Positions 20,433-27,141 of a stretch of DNA of 64,000 bases are shown one piece after another. The DNA lies in assembly GCA_035461305.1 (NCBI GenBank), contig DATHVN010000090.1, positions 1 through 64,000 on the forward strand. Direction: 5' to 3'. The position numbers and the translations under genes were made by a program. The notes beneath the pieces are model-generated. The model searched no databases. It was not told the DNA's origin and saw only the letters and a program-made list of their open reading frames with translations. Origin of the DNA: Euzebyales bacterium (lineage in GTDB: Bacteria > Actinomycetota > Nitriliruptoria > Euzebyales > JAHELV01). Positions within the stretch are counted from its first letter, which is position 1. Each line of letters starts with the position of its first letter.

Positions 20433-21374
20433 TCACGGGCCGAGTGCGGCGCACACCCTGGGCCACTCTTCCAGCGCCTGCCGCACCGCTGCGACGAAGC
20501 CCGGCCAGTCGCGGTCGTAGCGACGCCAACCGACACGCAGGCATCGCCACCGTGCCGTGGTGTATGCGTGGTCCTTGCGATGATCGAGATCGAGGGCACG
20601 CTGGTCGGCGTGGTGTGCCAGAGAGTCGCACTCGATGCACACCCGGGCCGAGGCGAACGTGATGTCGGGATGCAGCCGTCGCCCCTCCACGGTCACCGGT
20701 GTCGGTGTCGGGTCCGGGCTGAGACCATCTGCTACCAGCCGCCGGTGGACGAGGTCGGACAATACCGAATCGGCCCCGACCTCGGTGACGGCCGCGATCG
20801 CGTCGAGCAGCCGGCGGCGGCCGGGCAGCGTCGGCGTGGCCAGCGCCGCTCGTTCGCCCACCTCCGCCGGTTGAGCGATGCCGCGCTGACGGGCGTCGAT
20901 CAGCATCGCGCGCAGTTCTGGGTCATCCAGGGTCGCGGGCGCCGCGTCGAGGAAGGCCCGCGGGGGTGTGGTGCACCGGAGGCCGCGCACGACGGTGATG
21001 TCATCAGTGCGCAGCGTGCGCGACCGGACCACGTCCACGGCATGCAGCCTCCGGGCCCGGCGGCCGTGCGGTACGACCAGCATCAGGCGCGCCGGCTGGC
21101 GGTCCACGACCCCATGCACGTGGAGTGCGGTCACACCGGTGGCCGCGGCGTGCGGGCCGACGGCCAGCAGTGCGGCGCTGAGACGCGGCATCGGCCCCCA
21201 GATCGCGCCCGGGACCACGTACACACCACGATGTGGCTGCTGCCACCGTTCGGATCGGACACGACGGGTGAACGTGCGGTCGTTGATCCCCCGCTGTCGA
21301 GCCTGGGCTCTCGCGATCACGCCCCACTGGTGCGTGGCGAGTTCGAACAGGGCGATCCACGAGTTGTCCGGCAT
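20433..21374 (-). CDS. AbiEi-like N-terminal and DUF559-like endonuclease-fold protein
   Basis: The ATG at 21374 gives 313 residues. Residues about 1-110 resemble the AbiEi antitoxin/winged-helix start (ATHQWGVIARAQARQRGIND, RWQQPHRGVYVVPG). The last third resembles a Vsr-like DUF559 PD-(D/E)XK fold (LHPDITFASARVCIECDS, then DHRKDHAYTTARWRCLRVGW). The usual IEVDG core is IECDS, so catalysis is uncertain. Such proteins are common, often in many copies, in actinobacteria and have no settled role. No toxin partner lies next to it. The open frame continues upstream to 21845 into a pseudogene and is not part of this protein. Confidence 0.75.
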   Translation of the reverse strand: MPDNSWIALFELATHQWGVIARAQARQRGINDRTFTRRVRSERWQQPHRGVYVVPGAIWGPMPRLSAALLAVGPHAAATGVTALHVHGVVDRQPARLMLVVPHGRRARRLHAVDVVRSRTLRTDDITVVRGLRCTTPPRAFLDAAPATLDDPELRAMLIDARQRGIAQPAEVGERAALATPTLPGRRRLLDAIAAVTEVGADSVLSDLVHRRLVADGLSPDPTPTPVTVEGRRLHPDITFASARVCIECDSLAHHADQRALDLDHRKDHAYTTARWRCLRVGWRRYDRDWPGFVAAVRQALEEWPRVCAALGP

Positions 21375-21703
21375 GCCGCGCGACGATGCCCACTCTCGCG
21401 GTGGACGTCGAGCGCCGACCGCCTCTGGCCGTGGACAAGTGCGCGCCACAACAGCACCCGGGCGCGCTCCGAGCCAGATCCGACCGCAACCGCACCCGGG
21501 TACGGTTCGGGCGCCCCGGCCGGCGGGCGGGCAGTTCAGCGGGCGTGGTGGGACGTATGGCAGGTGGGTGGCACTTGCGCCGGCCGGGCTCGGCGACTGG
21601 CCGGCGTGGCGGAGGCGAAGCAGCGGGGGTAGCGGGACGCAGCGACGGGCCGGCGCAACGCGGCACGGGGACGCCCGCCGGGAGCGGGCGTCCCCCCGTC
21701 GCC

Positions 21704-22242
21704 CTACCGGCCGCGCAACCGCGGCCGCAGGATGAACAGCCCGCGATCCATGCTGCTCACGCCCCACGATCCCCTCCTGACGGAAGTAGGGGTAGTTGCT
21801 CCACGGCCCGCCCTCGAACGTCGGGCTGTCGTTCTCCGGATACATGTCGAAGTACGCGACCTGTGGCAGCTCTCCCTCAGCGACGTTGCTGGTATCGAAG
21901 ACGCGATAGCCCGACGTCTAGTTCGCAGCGTGCAGGTAGCGGCCCTCGGTGTACTCGTTGTGCCCGATCGACGTGGTGCCGTGGTTGACATGCGGCGGCT
22001 CGCTCAATGTGTCAAGGTCGCGCACGTCGAAGATCCGGTCCGTCGTGCCCGCGACCTGCCCGAACTCCTCGTCGAGTTCGTCGTTGTGCAGGAAGTACTG
22101 CTGATCCGGCGTCAGCCACCCCTGATGGATGTAACCGTCATCTTCGTACTCGTACCGCGCCAGCGGCACCGGGTTGTCCTTGTCGGTGACGTCGACTAAG
22201 GATCATCGACGCCACGACGAACATTGCCAGTCGTTTCCGCAT
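21704..22242 (-). pseudogene. Choice-of-anchor-B / LVIVD-repeat protein, internally deleted and broken
   Basis: A start with a signal-peptide opening (MRKRLAMFVVASMIL, ATG 22242) is joined after 15 residues, out of frame, to the C-terminal part of a choice-of-anchor-B-type secreted protein (DVTDKDNPVPLARYEYEDDG, HQGWLTPDQQYFLHNDELDE, TTDRIFDVRDLD). The body, several hundred residues in intact relatives, is missing. Further on, the codon after YLHAAN is TAG at about 21918, where a tyrosine is expected. The frame resumes as TSGYRVFDTSNVAEGELPQ to YPYFRQEG, then shifts by one base near 21770 before the last part (GVSSMDRGLFILRPRLRGR) ends at 21704. This is a decayed gene, not one sequence error. 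Confidence 0.8.
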
Positions 22243-22393: not shown

Positions 22394-23869
22394 TCAGGCC
22401 GTGACCGGGCGCAGGGGGACGCGCAGCTCGACGATCGTGCCGGGGTCACCGCGGCACACCTCGAAGGTGCCTCCGAGCTCGGTCTCCAGCAGCGTCCTGG
22501 CGATCCGCAGGCCGAGGTTGGCGATGTCGTCGAGCGAGGTGCCTTCCGGCAGCCCCACGCCGTTGTCGGCGACCACGACGCGCAGCTCGTCGCCGCCGCG
22601 GTCGAAGTGGACCGACACGTGGGCGTCGCCCTTCGGCGGCTCCTGGTCGTAGGGGAACGCGTGCTCGACGCAGTTCTGCAGCAGCTCCGCGATCACGAGC
22701 GCCAGCGGCGTCGCCACCTCGGCCGACAGCTCGTCGGGATCACCGGTCAGCTCGAACTCGATCGGCATGTCGGGGCCGACCAGTCCCTGCGCAAGCATGT
22801 CGACGATGCGGTGGGTGATCTTGATGAACGGCACCCGCTGGCGCGCCTCCTCGCTCAGCGTCTCGTGCACGAGCGCGATCGACGTGATCCGCCGGACGCT
22901 CTCGCTCAGCGCGGCCCGCGCCTCGTCGCTCTTGAGCCTTCGAGCCTGCAGCCGCAGCAGCGCCGCGACGGTCTGCAGGTTGTTCTTGACGCGGTGGTGG
23001 ATCTCCCGGATCGTGGCGTCCTTGACCATGAGCGCACGCTCGTGCTGGCGCAGCTCCGTCACCTCGCGCACCAGCAGCAGCGCGCCGATGATGCGGCGGT
23101 TGGCGATCAGCGGGATGAACCGGCGGATGACGACGGCGTCGTTGACCTCGACCTCGGCGTCGACGGGGATGCCCGTCCGCAGGCTCTCCAGCAGCTGGCG
23201 GGGCTCGGGATCCAGCCGCTCGATGTGCGAGCCCATCACCGAATCGAGGCTACCCAGACGCCGGTAGGCCGAGATGGCGTTCGGCGACGCGAACCCGACC
23301 ACGCCGTCGGCGTCCACGCGGATGATGCCGTCCCCGACCCGCGGGGCGAGCTCACGCTCCTCGCGGCTGGCGTCCGGGTGCGGCAGCGTGCCCTCGGCCA
23401 TCATCTGGGCCAGCTCGCCTGCGGTCTGCAGGTAGGTCAGCTCGAGCTGCGACGGCGCGCGGGCGGTCGACACGTTGGACTCCCGCGTGATGACCGCGAT
23501 CACCTCACCGCGGAAGCGAATGGGAATCGCCTCCTCACGGACCGGGACACCGGTGGACCAGTCAGGGTCGGCATCGCGGATGACGCGCTGCTCGACCAGG
23601 GCCCGACCGACCATGGGTCGCGCGCTCGTCGGGAACACCTGGCCGACCAGGTCCTCGGTGTAGATCGTCTGGGTCGTGTAGGGCCGCATCTGGCCGACGC
23701 ACAGGTACGCGGGGCTGCCGTCCGCTAGCTTGCAGCGCACCCACAGCAGCAGGTCGGCGAAGGACATGTCGGCGAGCGTCTGCCACTCCCCCAGCAGGGC
23801 CTGCAGGTGGTCGACCGCGTCGGCCGACAGCGCGCTGCGGTGCGCCAGCAGGTTCTCCAGCAGCGTCAC
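22394..23869 (-). CDS. pdtaS: PdtaS-like cytosolic sensor histidine kinase
   Basis: The 491-residue soluble kinase has an N-terminal GAF-like domain (about 1-155), a PAS domain (about 178-275) and the HisKA_2 box IREIHHRVKNNLQTVAALLR with the phosphorylated His at 291 or 292. An HWE/HATPase_c domain follows (about 375-490, LVIAELLQNCVEHAF, VVVADNGVGLPEG). This is the domain order of mycobacterial PdtaS, which phosphorylates PdtaR, an antitermination regulator of the ANTAR type. No response regulator is next to it, so PdtaR should be elsewhere. There is no membrane segment. Confidence 0.92.
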   Translation of the reverse strand: MTLLENLLAHRSALSADAVDHLQALLGEWQTLADMSFADLLLWVRCKLADGSPAYLCVGQMRPYTTQTIYTEDLVGQVFPTSARPMVGRALVEQRVIRDADPDWSTGVPVREEAIPIRFRGEVIAVITRESNVSTARAPSQLELTYLQTAGELAQMMAEGTLPHPDASREERELAPRVGDGIIRVDADGVVGFASPNAISAYRRLGSLDSVMGSHIERLDPEPRQLLESLRTGIPVDAEVEVNDAVVIRRFIPLIANRRIIGALLLVREVTELRQHERALMVKDATIREIHHRVKNNLQTVAALLRLQARRLKSDEARAALSESVRRITSIALVHETLSEEARQRVPFIKITHRIVDMLAQGLVGPDMPIEFELTGDPDELSAEVATPLALVIAELLQNCVEHAFPYDQEPPKGDAHVSVHFDRGGDELRVVVADNGVGLPEGTSLDDIANLGLRIARTLLETELGGTFEVCRGDPGTIVELRVPLRPVTA

Positions 23870-23887: not shown

Positions 23888-25162
23888 CTACTCACGCCAG
23901 CCACCCGCCGCGCTCGTCCGCTCGGGGCCACCGACGACTCGCACGACCTCGTCAGAGCCCGGCCGCCACAGGTACAGATCACCGACGAACGGCGACAGGC
24001 CCACGTGGTCCAACGCCGGCCACATGCCGTCGAGGGCCACCGTGACGGTCGCACTCACCGCGTCCCCGATCAGCCCCTCCGTTGGATGCACACCGCTGGG
24101 CAGGTCGACCGACAGGATCGGTGCGGTGTGAGCCCGCAGCGCCAACATCATCTCCAGCGGCGTCCCCCGCAACCGTCCCTGCAGTCCACCGCCGACCAGC
24201 GCGTCGATGAACAGGTCGGCCCCGGGCAGTGTGCCGGTGAACGGCACGGCAGGCGAACCGGCGTCCGCGGCCGCCGTGACGACGCTCACCCGCGCGCCCG
24301 TCGCGATCAGGAGGCGTGCGGCCGCGAGGCCGACCGCACCGGTCCCGCCTGTCCCGGCCAGGACCACGATGTGCCCCGCCGGCTCTGGCAGGCGGCCGAC
24401 CGCCGCCGCGACCGCGCGTCCGGCGGCGTCGACGTTGGCGAGCGCGGGAGGTCCCGGCGCTGTGAGGCCGTGCCGCGGGCGGGTGGCGGTGCCGGGCAGA
24501 CGCGCCGGGGCGACACGGCGCTCGAGGCGGGGATCCAGCCAGGGCATCACCTCCTGCTCGTCGGGCAGGTCACCTGGATCGGTCCCAGCGCGCCAGTCCG
24601 GTTCGAGCACGTCGAGCAGCACCGTCACGACCATGCCGGTGGCGCCCCAGAGGGTGTGGTCACCATCGAGCGCCCACGCCCACGACCAGCCGGTGGCCGA
24701 CAGCCTGACCTTGCGCCAGCGTGACCGGTGGGTCAGGGCCGACAGCGGCGCGTGGACGATCGCCGCGACCTCCGCCTCCTGCGCCTCCAGCGGGTGAGGC
24801 GCGTGCCACCTGGCGACGACCGGCGCCATCCAGAACCGCGAGGGTGGGATGAAGAACGCTGGCAGGCGCCCGACGACCTCCACCGTCGAAGGCCGCAGAC
24901 CGATCTCCTCGGCGGCTTCGCGCAGCGCCGCCGACCGGGTCGTCTCCCACGACTCCCGTCGCCCACCGGGGAACGAGACCTGCCCGGGATGCGTGGGCAG
25001 ATCGTCGCGGCGGCGGGTGAGCACGAAGACCAGGTCGTCGTTGCGCTCCTCGAGCAGCACGAGCACCGCGCCGACCCGGGCGGTCGTCGCGCCGACATCC
25101 GTCGCACGCAGCTCGGCAAGGCCTGTTCGCAGCCTGTGCCACCGGCGCGCGTTGGCGCTCAC
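23888..25162 (-). CDS. Fusion of NUDIX hydrolase and YjeF_N (NAD(P)H-hydrate epimerase-like) domain
   Basis: GTG 25162 overlaps the stop of the next gene upstream (GTGA), which fixes the start and gives 424 residues. Residues about 25-190 are a NUDIX domain of the CoA-pyrophosphatase type (VSFPGGRRES, then AALREAAEEIGL; the G-x5-E-x7-REAAEEIG box is complete). Residues about 240-415 match the YjeF_N epimerase fold (AGTGGTGAVGLAAARLL, DALVGGGLQGRLRG, SVDLPSGVHPTEG). The epimerase's NNGGDG loop is GTGGTG here, so the acidic residue is gone and activity may be lost or changed. NUDIX and epimerase are both metabolite-repair activities on nucleotide cofactors, so the fusion makes functional sense. 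It is last in the cluster ftsB-GNAT-DUF501-ppx. Confidence 0.85.
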   Translation of the reverse strand: MSANARRWHRLRTGLAELRATDVGATTARVGAVLVLLEERNDDLVFVLTRRRDDLPTHPGQVSFPGGRRESWETTRSAALREAAEEIGLRPSTVEVVGRLPAFFIPPSRFWMAPVVARWHAPHPLEAQEAEVAAIVHAPLSALTHRSRWRKVRLSATGWSWAWALDGDHTLWGATGMVVTVLLDVLEPDWRAGTDPGDLPDEQEVMPWLDPRLERRVAPARLPGTATRPRHGLTAPGPPALANVDAAGRAVAAAVGRLPEPAGHIVVLAGTGGTGAVGLAAARLLIATGARVSVVTAAADAGSPAVPFTGTLPGADLFIDALVGGGLQGRLRGTPLEMMLALRAHTAPILSVDLPSGVHPTEGLIGDAVSATVTVALDGMWPALDHVGLSPFVGDLYLWRPGSDEVVRVVGGPERTSAAGGWRE

Positions 25163-26112
25163 GTCGCTCCGTCGATGGCCGCTGGAGGCCACGCGTCGGC
25201 GCCGACGCGTCGCGCGATGCCGTCGAGCAGGTCGGCGACCCGGACCTCGACCGCGTCGAAGCCGAACCGCGCCAGCAGGCGGCTGAGCAGCAGCGCACCC
25301 GCCACAATGACGTCCTCGCGGCCGGGGACGACGGGAGGCAGTGCCAGGCGCTGCGCGGCCGGCACCCAGGCCAGGTCCTCGATGACCTGCGCGACGTCGA
25401 CGGACGACAGGACGGTGCCGTCGACCGCGTCGACGTCGGGAGCCGTCGCGCCGACCGCCACCGCGGCCACGGTCAGGGCGGTGCCCGCCACCGCGATCTG
25501 CGGGTGGCACCCGACGGCCGTGAACGCGTCGTCCTGGCGGGCGAGCACATCGTCGATCCCGTTCACCAGCGCCGCGTACTCGGCCACCGACGGCGGGTCG
25601 CCGTGCAGGTGTCGCTCGCGCAGGCGGACGCTGCCCACCTGCATGCTGACCCATCGGTCGACCCTGCCGTCGCCGCTGATCAGCTCGGTCGACCCACCGC
25701 CGATGTCACACACCACCCGGCGCCCGCTGGTTCCGGCCGTGGCCCCCTCGAAGGTCAGAGCCGCCTCCTGCGCACCGGTCAGGACCGTGACGTCGGCGCC
25801 CGTGATGTCGCGCACGGTGGTGAGGAACACCGCGGCGTCGGTCGCGTCGCGCACCGCACTGGTCGCTGTCATCGCGACGCGCACCGCCCCGGCGTCGCGC
25901 CACTGCCGGGCGTAATCGGCCAGCACGTCACCGACCCTGGTGATCGCGGCCTCAGACAGGCGTCCGGACGCGTCGACGCCAGCGCCCAGCCGTGTGAGCG
26001 CGGTTCGCCGCACGAGCGGATCCACGCCGCGGCCGTCGACGTGGGCGAGCAGCAGGCGCGTCGAGTTGGTACCGCAGTCGACGGCGGCCACGACGCGACG
26101 GTCAGCCGTCAT
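25159..26112 (-). CDS. ppx: Ppx/GppA family exopolyphosphatase
   Basis: The 317-residue protein has the ASKHA ATPase pattern: VVAAVDCGTNSTRLLLA (phosphate 1), AMTATSAVRDATDAAVFL and RRVVCDIGGGSTELISG (phosphate 2). It is of the short single-fold Ppx type found in actinobacteria and should split polyphosphate or pppGpp. The ATG at 26112 lies inside the end of the DUF501 gene (11-base overlap), and its stop overlaps the NUDIX-YjeF start. The eno-ftsB-DUF501-ppx order is a common actinobacterial arrangement. Confidence 0.92.
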   Translation of the reverse strand: MTADRRVVAAVDCGTNSTRLLLAHVDGRGVDPLVRRTALTRLGAGVDASGRLSEAAITRVGDVLADYARQWRDAGAVRVAMTATSAVRDATDAAVFLTTVRDITGADVTVLTGAQEAALTFEGATAGTSGRRVVCDIGGGSTELISGDGRVDRWVSMQVGSVRLRERHLHGDPPSVAEYAALVNGIDDVLARQDDAFTAVGCHPQIAVAGTALTVAAVAVGATAPDVDAVDGTVLSSVDVAQVIEDLAWVPAAQRLALPPVVPGREDVIVAGALLLSRLLARFGFDAVEVRVADLLDGIARRVGADAWPPAAIDGAT

Positions 26113-26656
26113 CGGCGTCGTCGCCAACGCACGGACCGGGACACGGCATCGGCTCGTTCTGACGCGCAGCCCATGCTCCGACCGGGTTGTCCTGGGTCGC
26201 GAGGTGGTGTGCGTACAGCGCGTGCAGGCACTTGACCCTGCCGGGCATGCCGCCCGCACTGGGATCACCAGGGACTCGGGGTCCGAGCTCGCTGCGGAAC
26301 GCCACGTAACGTTCGTGTGCCGCACGGTACGCGTCAGCGAGCACCTCGTCCTCTCCGAGCTGGGCGGTGAGGTCGCGCATGATCCCGCTGGCCTCGAGCC
26401 GCCCCATGGCCCGGCTCGCCAGCGGACAACTGAGCCAGAACACCGTCGGAAACGGCGTGCCGTCGTCGAGCTGCGGATCGACCCGCAGCACGGCGGGCAG
26501 GCCCCACGCGCACCGCACCGCGGTGGCCGACCGGCCCCGCAGCGGACGGCCGATCATGCGCGCCGCCAACTCGGCTTCTTCGGGGTCCATGGGTGCACGG
26601 GCCAGCTGCGCCGCGTACGACGCGTCGTCGGCCGGGCGGAGGGCGTCAGGGATCAT
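26102..26656 (-). CDS. DUF501 domain protein
   Basis: The 184-residue protein matches DUF501 in its core (MIGRPLRGRSATAVRCAWGL, PFPTVFWLSCPLASRAMGRL, VKCLHALYAHHLATQDNPVG). Conserved cysteines and histidines suggest metal binding, but the family has no known role. ATG 26656 overlaps the GNAT stop by four bases (ATGA). It sits between ftsB-like/GNAT and ppx, its usual place in actinobacteria. Confidence 0.9.
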   Translation of the reverse strand: MIPDALRPADDASYAAQLARAPMDPEEAELAARMIGRPLRGRSATAVRCAWGLPAVLRVDPQLDDGTPFPTVFWLSCPLASRAMGRLEASGIMRDLTAQLGEDEVLADAYRAAHERYVAFRSELGPRVPGDPSAGGMPGRVKCLHALYAHHLATQDNPVGAWAARQNEPMPCPGPCVGDDADDG

Positions 26657-27141
26657 CCGGACCACCCGTCGCCACCCGGGTCCCGTCGCATCGGGACGTG
26701 GGCGATGCCGTCCTCTACGAAGGCGGGGCCGTCGACGACGAAGCCGCGCCGACCGTACCAGCCGGTCAGGCGCGCCTGCACCGCAGCGACCACCGCGCCC
26801 GGCGCGGCCTCAACGGCGTGGCGGACCAGACAGTCCGCGAGGCCCTGCCCGCGCAGCTCCGGTGCGGTCACGACGCGCCCGATCCGCGTGACGTCGCCGC
26901 CCTCGTCGAGCGTCCGGACGTAGGCGCCCACCGCACCGTCGCCGCCGGCGATCCACAGGTGCCGCGTCGTCGGCTCGGTGTCACGTCCGTCAATGTCACG
27001 ATAGGTGCACCGCTGCTCGACCACGAACACGTCCGAGCGCAGCCTCAGGATCGCGTACAGGGTCGCGACGTCCAGCTCGGCGAACGTCGCGGACCGCACC
27101 ACCGTGTCGGCGGTCACCGGATCGCGCGCCGATCGTCTCAT
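26653..27141 (-). CDS. GNAT acetyltransferase, ElaA-like
   Basis: The 162-residue protein shows the ElaA start (TLYAILRLRSDVFVVEQRCT, YRDIDGRDTEPTTRHLWI) and the acetyl-CoA motif IGRVVTAPELRGQGLADCLV near 88-107. It should acetylate a small amine; the acceptor is unknown. It begins eight bases after the ftsB-like stop and its own stop overlaps DUF501, so it is embedded in this operon. GNATs are not a fixed part of the eno-ppx cluster in other actinobacteria, so it may be an insertion that kept coupling. Confidence 0.87.
   Translation of the reverse strand: MRRSARDPVTADTVVRSATFAELDVATLYAILRLRSDVFVVEQRCTYRDIDGRDTEPTTRHLWIAGGDGAVGAYVRTLDEGGDVTRIGRVVTAPELRGQGLADCLVRHAVEAAPGAVVAAVQARLTGWYGRRGFVVDGPAFVEDGIAHVPMRRDPGGDGWSG

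Follow-up and report, generated by a model that had tools for sequence, protein, structure and literature searches.

The locus described here raises the question of what is done by a single bacterial protein that joins a NUDIX domain to a YjeF_N domain, the fold of the NAD(P)HX epimerases, and whether both of its halves still act as enzymes. The gene lies in a stretch of 64,000 nucleotides from a Euzebyales bacterium (the window), and a first-pass annotation had proposed that it might couple two cofactor-repair steps in one chain. The features needed for the following analysis are given here in window coordinates, (-) denoting the reverse strand.

23888..25162, (-): NUDIX-YjeF_N fusion gene, GTG start, 424 aa (ORF, Pfam, profile search)
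24593..25081, (-): NUDIX domain with C-terminal extension, residues 28-190, CoA-pyrophosphatase/NUDT7-like fold (Pfam, structure model, Foldseek)
24896..24964, (-): complete Nudix box, residues 67-89, G-x5-E-x7-REAAEEIGL (sequence)
23963..24442, (-): YjeF_N domain, residues 241-400 (Pfam, structure model, Foldseek)
24329..24355, (-): loop GTGGTGAVG, residues 270-278, replacing GPGNNGGDG (alignment)
24203..24205, (-): D320, the Asp of DALxGxG, kept in 29/29 fusions (alignment)
24104..24106, (-): D353, the Asp of DxPSG, kept in the window protein (alignment)
24020..24022, (-): W381, where the catalytic Lys is expected (alignment)
25159..26325, (-): ppx/gppA-type phosphatase ORF, upstream, conserved neighbour with 4-nt overlap (Pfam, synteny)
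26102..26665, (-): DUF501 gene, in the conserved synteny eno-ftsB-GNAT-DUF501-ppx-fusion (Pfam, synteny)
22394..23869, (-): PdtaS-type histidine kinase, downstream, a neighbour only in the window's genus (Pfam, synteny)

The fusion ORF runs without interruption from its GTG start at 25162 to its stop at 23888, and its first 4 nt (25159-25162) take in the stop codon of the upstream ppx. Pfam analysis of the window protein recovered both domains above their cut-offs, NUDIX at residues 31-135 (E 2.1e-13) and YjeF_N in the C-terminal half (E 1.9e-20), and both families were matched by all 28 aligned fusion relatives. The single-chain AlphaFold2 model, calculated for the window protein with these 28 relatives, reached a mean pLDDT of 90.7 and a pTM of 0.89. 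Furthermore, the profile search found both halves in one match in 50 of the 66 class genomes, single-contig genomes included (in 2 of the 50, one in-frame stop was counted within the match). Evidently, the fusion reported by the first-pass annotation is real. Nothing was found in favour of an artefact joining two genes, and an assembly or frameshift origin is ruled out for all practical purposes by the occurrence of the single-frame fusion throughout these genomes; the sequence error between two genes, against which the annotation had cautioned, does not agree with a fusion conserved across the class, at one locus in all cases examined.

Across the phylum, 396 genomes were sampled; among the matches listed, full-length fusion matches occurred only inside the class, whereas the 358 same-phylum genomes outside it held, again among the matches listed, separate halves only, with matches covering the NUDIX half or slightly more. 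A single contig scan of named public genomes returned only a distant Flavobacteriales YjeF-like match, and no plasmid record covered 80% of the fusion query, the matches listed there being to the NUDIX half only. The idea that the fusion joined genes which are neighbours in other genomes was considered and rejected, as no YjeF gene was seen within ~1.5 kb of the standalone NUDIX gene at 12 loci outside the class. Two single genomes may be mentioned here: a congener carries an extra YjeF_N match in a 416-aa frame (G002:C4:7039-7524, reverse strand) besides its Nnr and its fusion, and a genome of the same order (G004, 2.1 Mb, 96% complete) has neither a YjeF_N match nor the fusion.

The fusion was found downstream of DUF501-ppx in 16 of 16 class loci examined, with eno and ftsB also present at most of them. 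What lies between ppx and the fusion differs from locus to locus, often amounting to 0-5 kb of unrelated genes. The true ppx start probably lies downstream of the first codon of the ORF. The conserved neighbours eno, ftsB, DUF501 and ppx pointed to no specific function. On the downstream side, congeners share 89-93% identity in the PdtaS-type kinase, compared with 68-70% in the adjoining fusion, which is a strong contrast in constraint. Farther downstream (20433-21845, reverse strand) lies an ORF, its true start probably internal, in which an AbiEi_4 antitoxin-type domain is accompanied by a weak match of the C-terminal part to the restriction-endonuclease-like MTES_1575.

In the YjeF_N tree all fused domains form one clade (98/92*), and by this topology the fusion arose once. 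Their sister is a standalone YjeF_N family of the same class, and the two together are set apart from Nnr (98/95*). The standalone proteins (L046, L051-L053, L055, L056 and L058) carry the loop GPGGNGGGG, in which the first Asn and the Asp are already lost as in the fusions; unlike the fusions, they keep the catalytic Lys and have no NUDIX domain attached. From the tree and the alignment columns we infer that the loop was lost first, and the Lys later and more than once. In L051 and L052 the standalone YjeF_N gene adjoins what looks by eye like a glycogen-debranching-type enzyme.

In several genomes of the class (G016, G024, G019, G007 and G011) the NUDIX half stands alone at the fusion locus, in G007 and G011 with ppx just upstream. 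Such NUDIX-only ORFs end after about residue 220-250, with a VOC/glyoxalase-like frame next in several; L093, L094, L095, L096 and L097 are among the class members whose NUDIX gene ends before the YjeF half. In the NUDIX-half tree the NUDIX-only orthologues are nested among the fusions, the starred branches forcing at least two changes and the best tree containing three, which indicates that the YjeF half was lost in at least two or three lineages after a single gain. The lineages concerned dropped the YjeF half and kept the NUDIX half, which fits an accessory role of the former.

The Nudix box of the window protein contains the RExxEE catalytic residues of Nudix hydrolases, and E73, R81, E82, E85 and E86 are invariant in 28/28 fusions of the alignment. 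By sequence, the solved relatives of this half are the D. radiodurans CoA pyrophosphatase 1nqy and NUDT7, and Foldseek on the model placed its fold nearest to NUDT7 (E 2e-12) and the CoA pyrophosphatase 1nqz. By both fold and sequence this half is thus nearest to the solved CoA pyrophosphatases (NudL/NUDT7), in agreement with the CoA-pyrophosphatase type given to it in the first-pass annotation. With NUDT7, the NudL/PRK10707 model and 1nqz it has in common the fold, the Nudix box, the GQ.SFPGG region and the C-terminal WGATA segment. It differs from them in the attached YjeF_N, in the 76 bits that the window protein scores against the NCBIfam CoA pyrophosphatase model PRK10707, under the cut-off of 134, and in the NuCoA signature, which we take to be LLTxR[SA]x3Rx3Gx3FPGG. 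The strict signature was found in 0/28 fusions, where the [SA] residue is replaced (TRRR) by Arg or another residue, and in 5 of 12 standalone NUDIX relatives outside the class. CoA specificity is therefore uncertain, and to judge from the sequence the substrate would likely be CoA or another nucleoside-diphosphate-linked (NDP-X) cofactor.

For the YjeF half, TM0922 is the solved relative by sequence, and Foldseek matched mouse AI-BP (5e-9), yeast YNL200c, TM0922 and, more weakly, human Edc3 (1e-5); Pfam and Foldseek thus agree on the YjeF_N fold of the NAD(P)HX epimerases. Residue states were read after aligning the fusions with E. coli YjeF and with 21 Nnr proteins from the class. In register, the window's GTGGTGAVG faces GPGNNGGDG, with the first Asn changed to Gly, the second to Thr and the Asp to Val, and therefore GTGAVG, not GTGGTG, faces NNGGDG. 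The loss of the acidic loop residue noticed in the first-pass annotation thus stands, while its register has to be corrected and both Asn residues are gone as well as the Asp. Across the fusions the first Asn is kept in 0/29, the Asp in 0/29 and the second Asn in 17/29, compared with all three in 21/21 class Nnr proteins, a loop count that is partly circular because these 21 were chosen by a regular expression demanding an NNGGDG-type loop (the Lys and pocket counts are not affected). Two Nnr proteins beyond the 21 (L060 and L061) also retain the loop Asp. NCBIfam also matched the loop weakly to short-chain dehydrogenases, hits to which no weight was given.

The position of the catalytic Lys, K192 of E. 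coli YjeF in the numbering of PMC5938422 and, by our own matching, presumably K197 of the RefSeq sequence, is occupied by W381 in the window protein. Lys is found there in 2 of 29 fusions (L024 and L031, both from genus g23, which branches early within its family) versus 21/21 class Nnr proteins. The pocket Asp of DxPSG is present in the window protein as D353, which was equated by hand residue counting with D147 of TM0922 and D188 of AI-BP, positions described in PMC4059234. Since this position is Asp in 22, Glu in 6 and Ala in 1 of the 29 fusions, the pocket is not strictly kept; the class Nnr proteins keep loop, Lys and pocket Asp residues alike. D320, P355, G357 and the glycine frame of the loop are near-invariant in the fusions. 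Among four congeners of the window's genus dN/dS amounts to 0.20-0.55 in the YjeF half, the NUDIX half lying at 0.17-0.32. Neither half is therefore decaying, which rules out a pseudogene, and by this measure both halves are under purifying selection.

The window genome furthermore encodes its own separate and complete Nnr of 504 aa, with the epimerase motifs and a dehydratase half (the latter recognised by eye). With the Nnr/YjeF epimerase-dehydratases and NAXE/AI-BP the fusion has the YjeF_N fold and the DALxG and DxPSG motifs in common, but it lacks the NNGGDG loop and the catalytic Lys, and compared with the bifunctional Nnr also the YjeF_C dehydratase. The proposed coupling of two cofactor-repair steps is unlikely because repair needs the epimerase residues that have been lost and because the intact Nnr of the same cell performs it. 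A bifunctional repair enzyme with an active NADHX epimerase could appeal to the clear YjeF_N fold and to the Lys retained in the two g23 members; the window protein, however, has none of N, N, D and K, and K192A alone removes at least 95% of the epimerase activity of E. coli YjeF (PMC5938422), making such an enzyme highly improbable. The first-pass annotation had also been wary of a full-length second YjeF accompanied by absence of the fusion in relatives: the former exists as Nnr, whereas the fusion is conserved. Its suggestion that the YjeF half binds rather than converts nucleotides describes the likelier role, as the residues needed by epimerases are gone.

Other functions have to be weighed for either half. 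The YjeF half might still be an enzyme that uses its kept Asp residues for another reaction on an NAD-related or other nucleotide; the invariant D320, the mostly kept D353 and the constraint on this half would suit such an activity, as would the reports that Edc3, not a known epimerase, modifies NAD in vitro (PMC4059234) and that a suspected second YjeF function is linked to vitamin B6 (PMC5938422). We nevertheless regard this as unlikely, with both loop and Lys gone and the YjeF half repeatedly discarded while the NUDIX half was kept. Somewhat more doubtful still is a structural or dimerisation piece without any ligand, for which the requirement of Edc3 for its YjeF_N in dimerisation (PMC4059234) can be cited and to which the variable loop and Lys positions, suggestive of relaxed constraint on the pocket, would correspond, but the near-invariance of D320, P355, G357 and the loop glycines speaks against it. 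For the NUDIX half, guanosine polyphosphates might be the substrate, with the Ppx/GppA phosphatase next door as its partner; this reading is suggested by ppx at the same locus in 16/16 cases, overlapping in the window, and by the guanosine-polyphosphate activity included in the CoA clade of Nudix proteins (PMC5389931). Given that the order eno-ftsB-DUF501-ppx is conserved in its own right and that unrelated genes often separate ppx from the fusion, we attach hardly any probability to it.

With moderate confidence, we favour the reading that the protein is a NUDIX pyrophosphohydrolase whose YjeF_N is a pseudo-epimerase, binding a nucleotide-like ligand and/or mediating dimerisation and thereby tuning the NUDIX half. 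The CoA-diphosphatase-type half would cleave CoA or another nucleoside-diphosphate-linked cofactor; the YjeF half, with fold and pocket Asp kept and its epimerase function presumably gone, may bind a nucleotide-like ligand, by analogy with Edc3, and/or assemble the protein, and either action could tune the NUDIX half. The tuning role is proposed because Edc3 shows that a YjeF_N can matter even when it is no epimerase. Edc3 acts with the NUDIX enzyme Dcp2 in eukaryotic mRNA decapping. It binds NADH with a Kd of about 163 uM, requires its YjeF_N for dimerisation and is altered in function by mutation of the pocket Asp (PMC4059234). As in the fusion, a non-epimerase YjeF_N with the pocket Asp kept is paired with a NUDIX; the likeness, which consists of the fold match to 3d3k and the kept Asp, is one of logic and not of membership. 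Edc3 and Dcp2 are separate proteins, and Dcp2 is of another Nudix type. The plant epimerase-PPOX is likewise a YjeF_N fused to an enzyme of cofactor metabolism, but its partner is a B6 salvage enzyme and its epimerase is biochemically validated (PMC5938422).

The literature search found no paper joining YjeF_N, Nudix and fusion, the genome sampling covering one phylum; in the passages covered of one paper that has both NADHX and Nudix, no link between them was found. In NUDIX-YjeF_N, known domains are combined in a new way, and the pattern of loss is informative. By analogy, and only tentatively, it may be a single-chain metabolite-sensing NUDIX, in which YjeF_N would sense NAD(H), NADHX or another nucleotide and switch a cofactor pyrophosphatase; if true, bacteria would have evolved their own counterpart of the Edc3-Dcp2 pairing independently. 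It has been suspected that YjeF_N domains have another function in addition to epimerising NADHX (PMC5938422). A fusion spread across a whole class, in which the epimerase residues disappeared stepwise, the domain is under selection and Nnr is present in the same cell, isolates this second function, which is thereby confined to one small testable protein, with the lineages without the YjeF half as natural controls.
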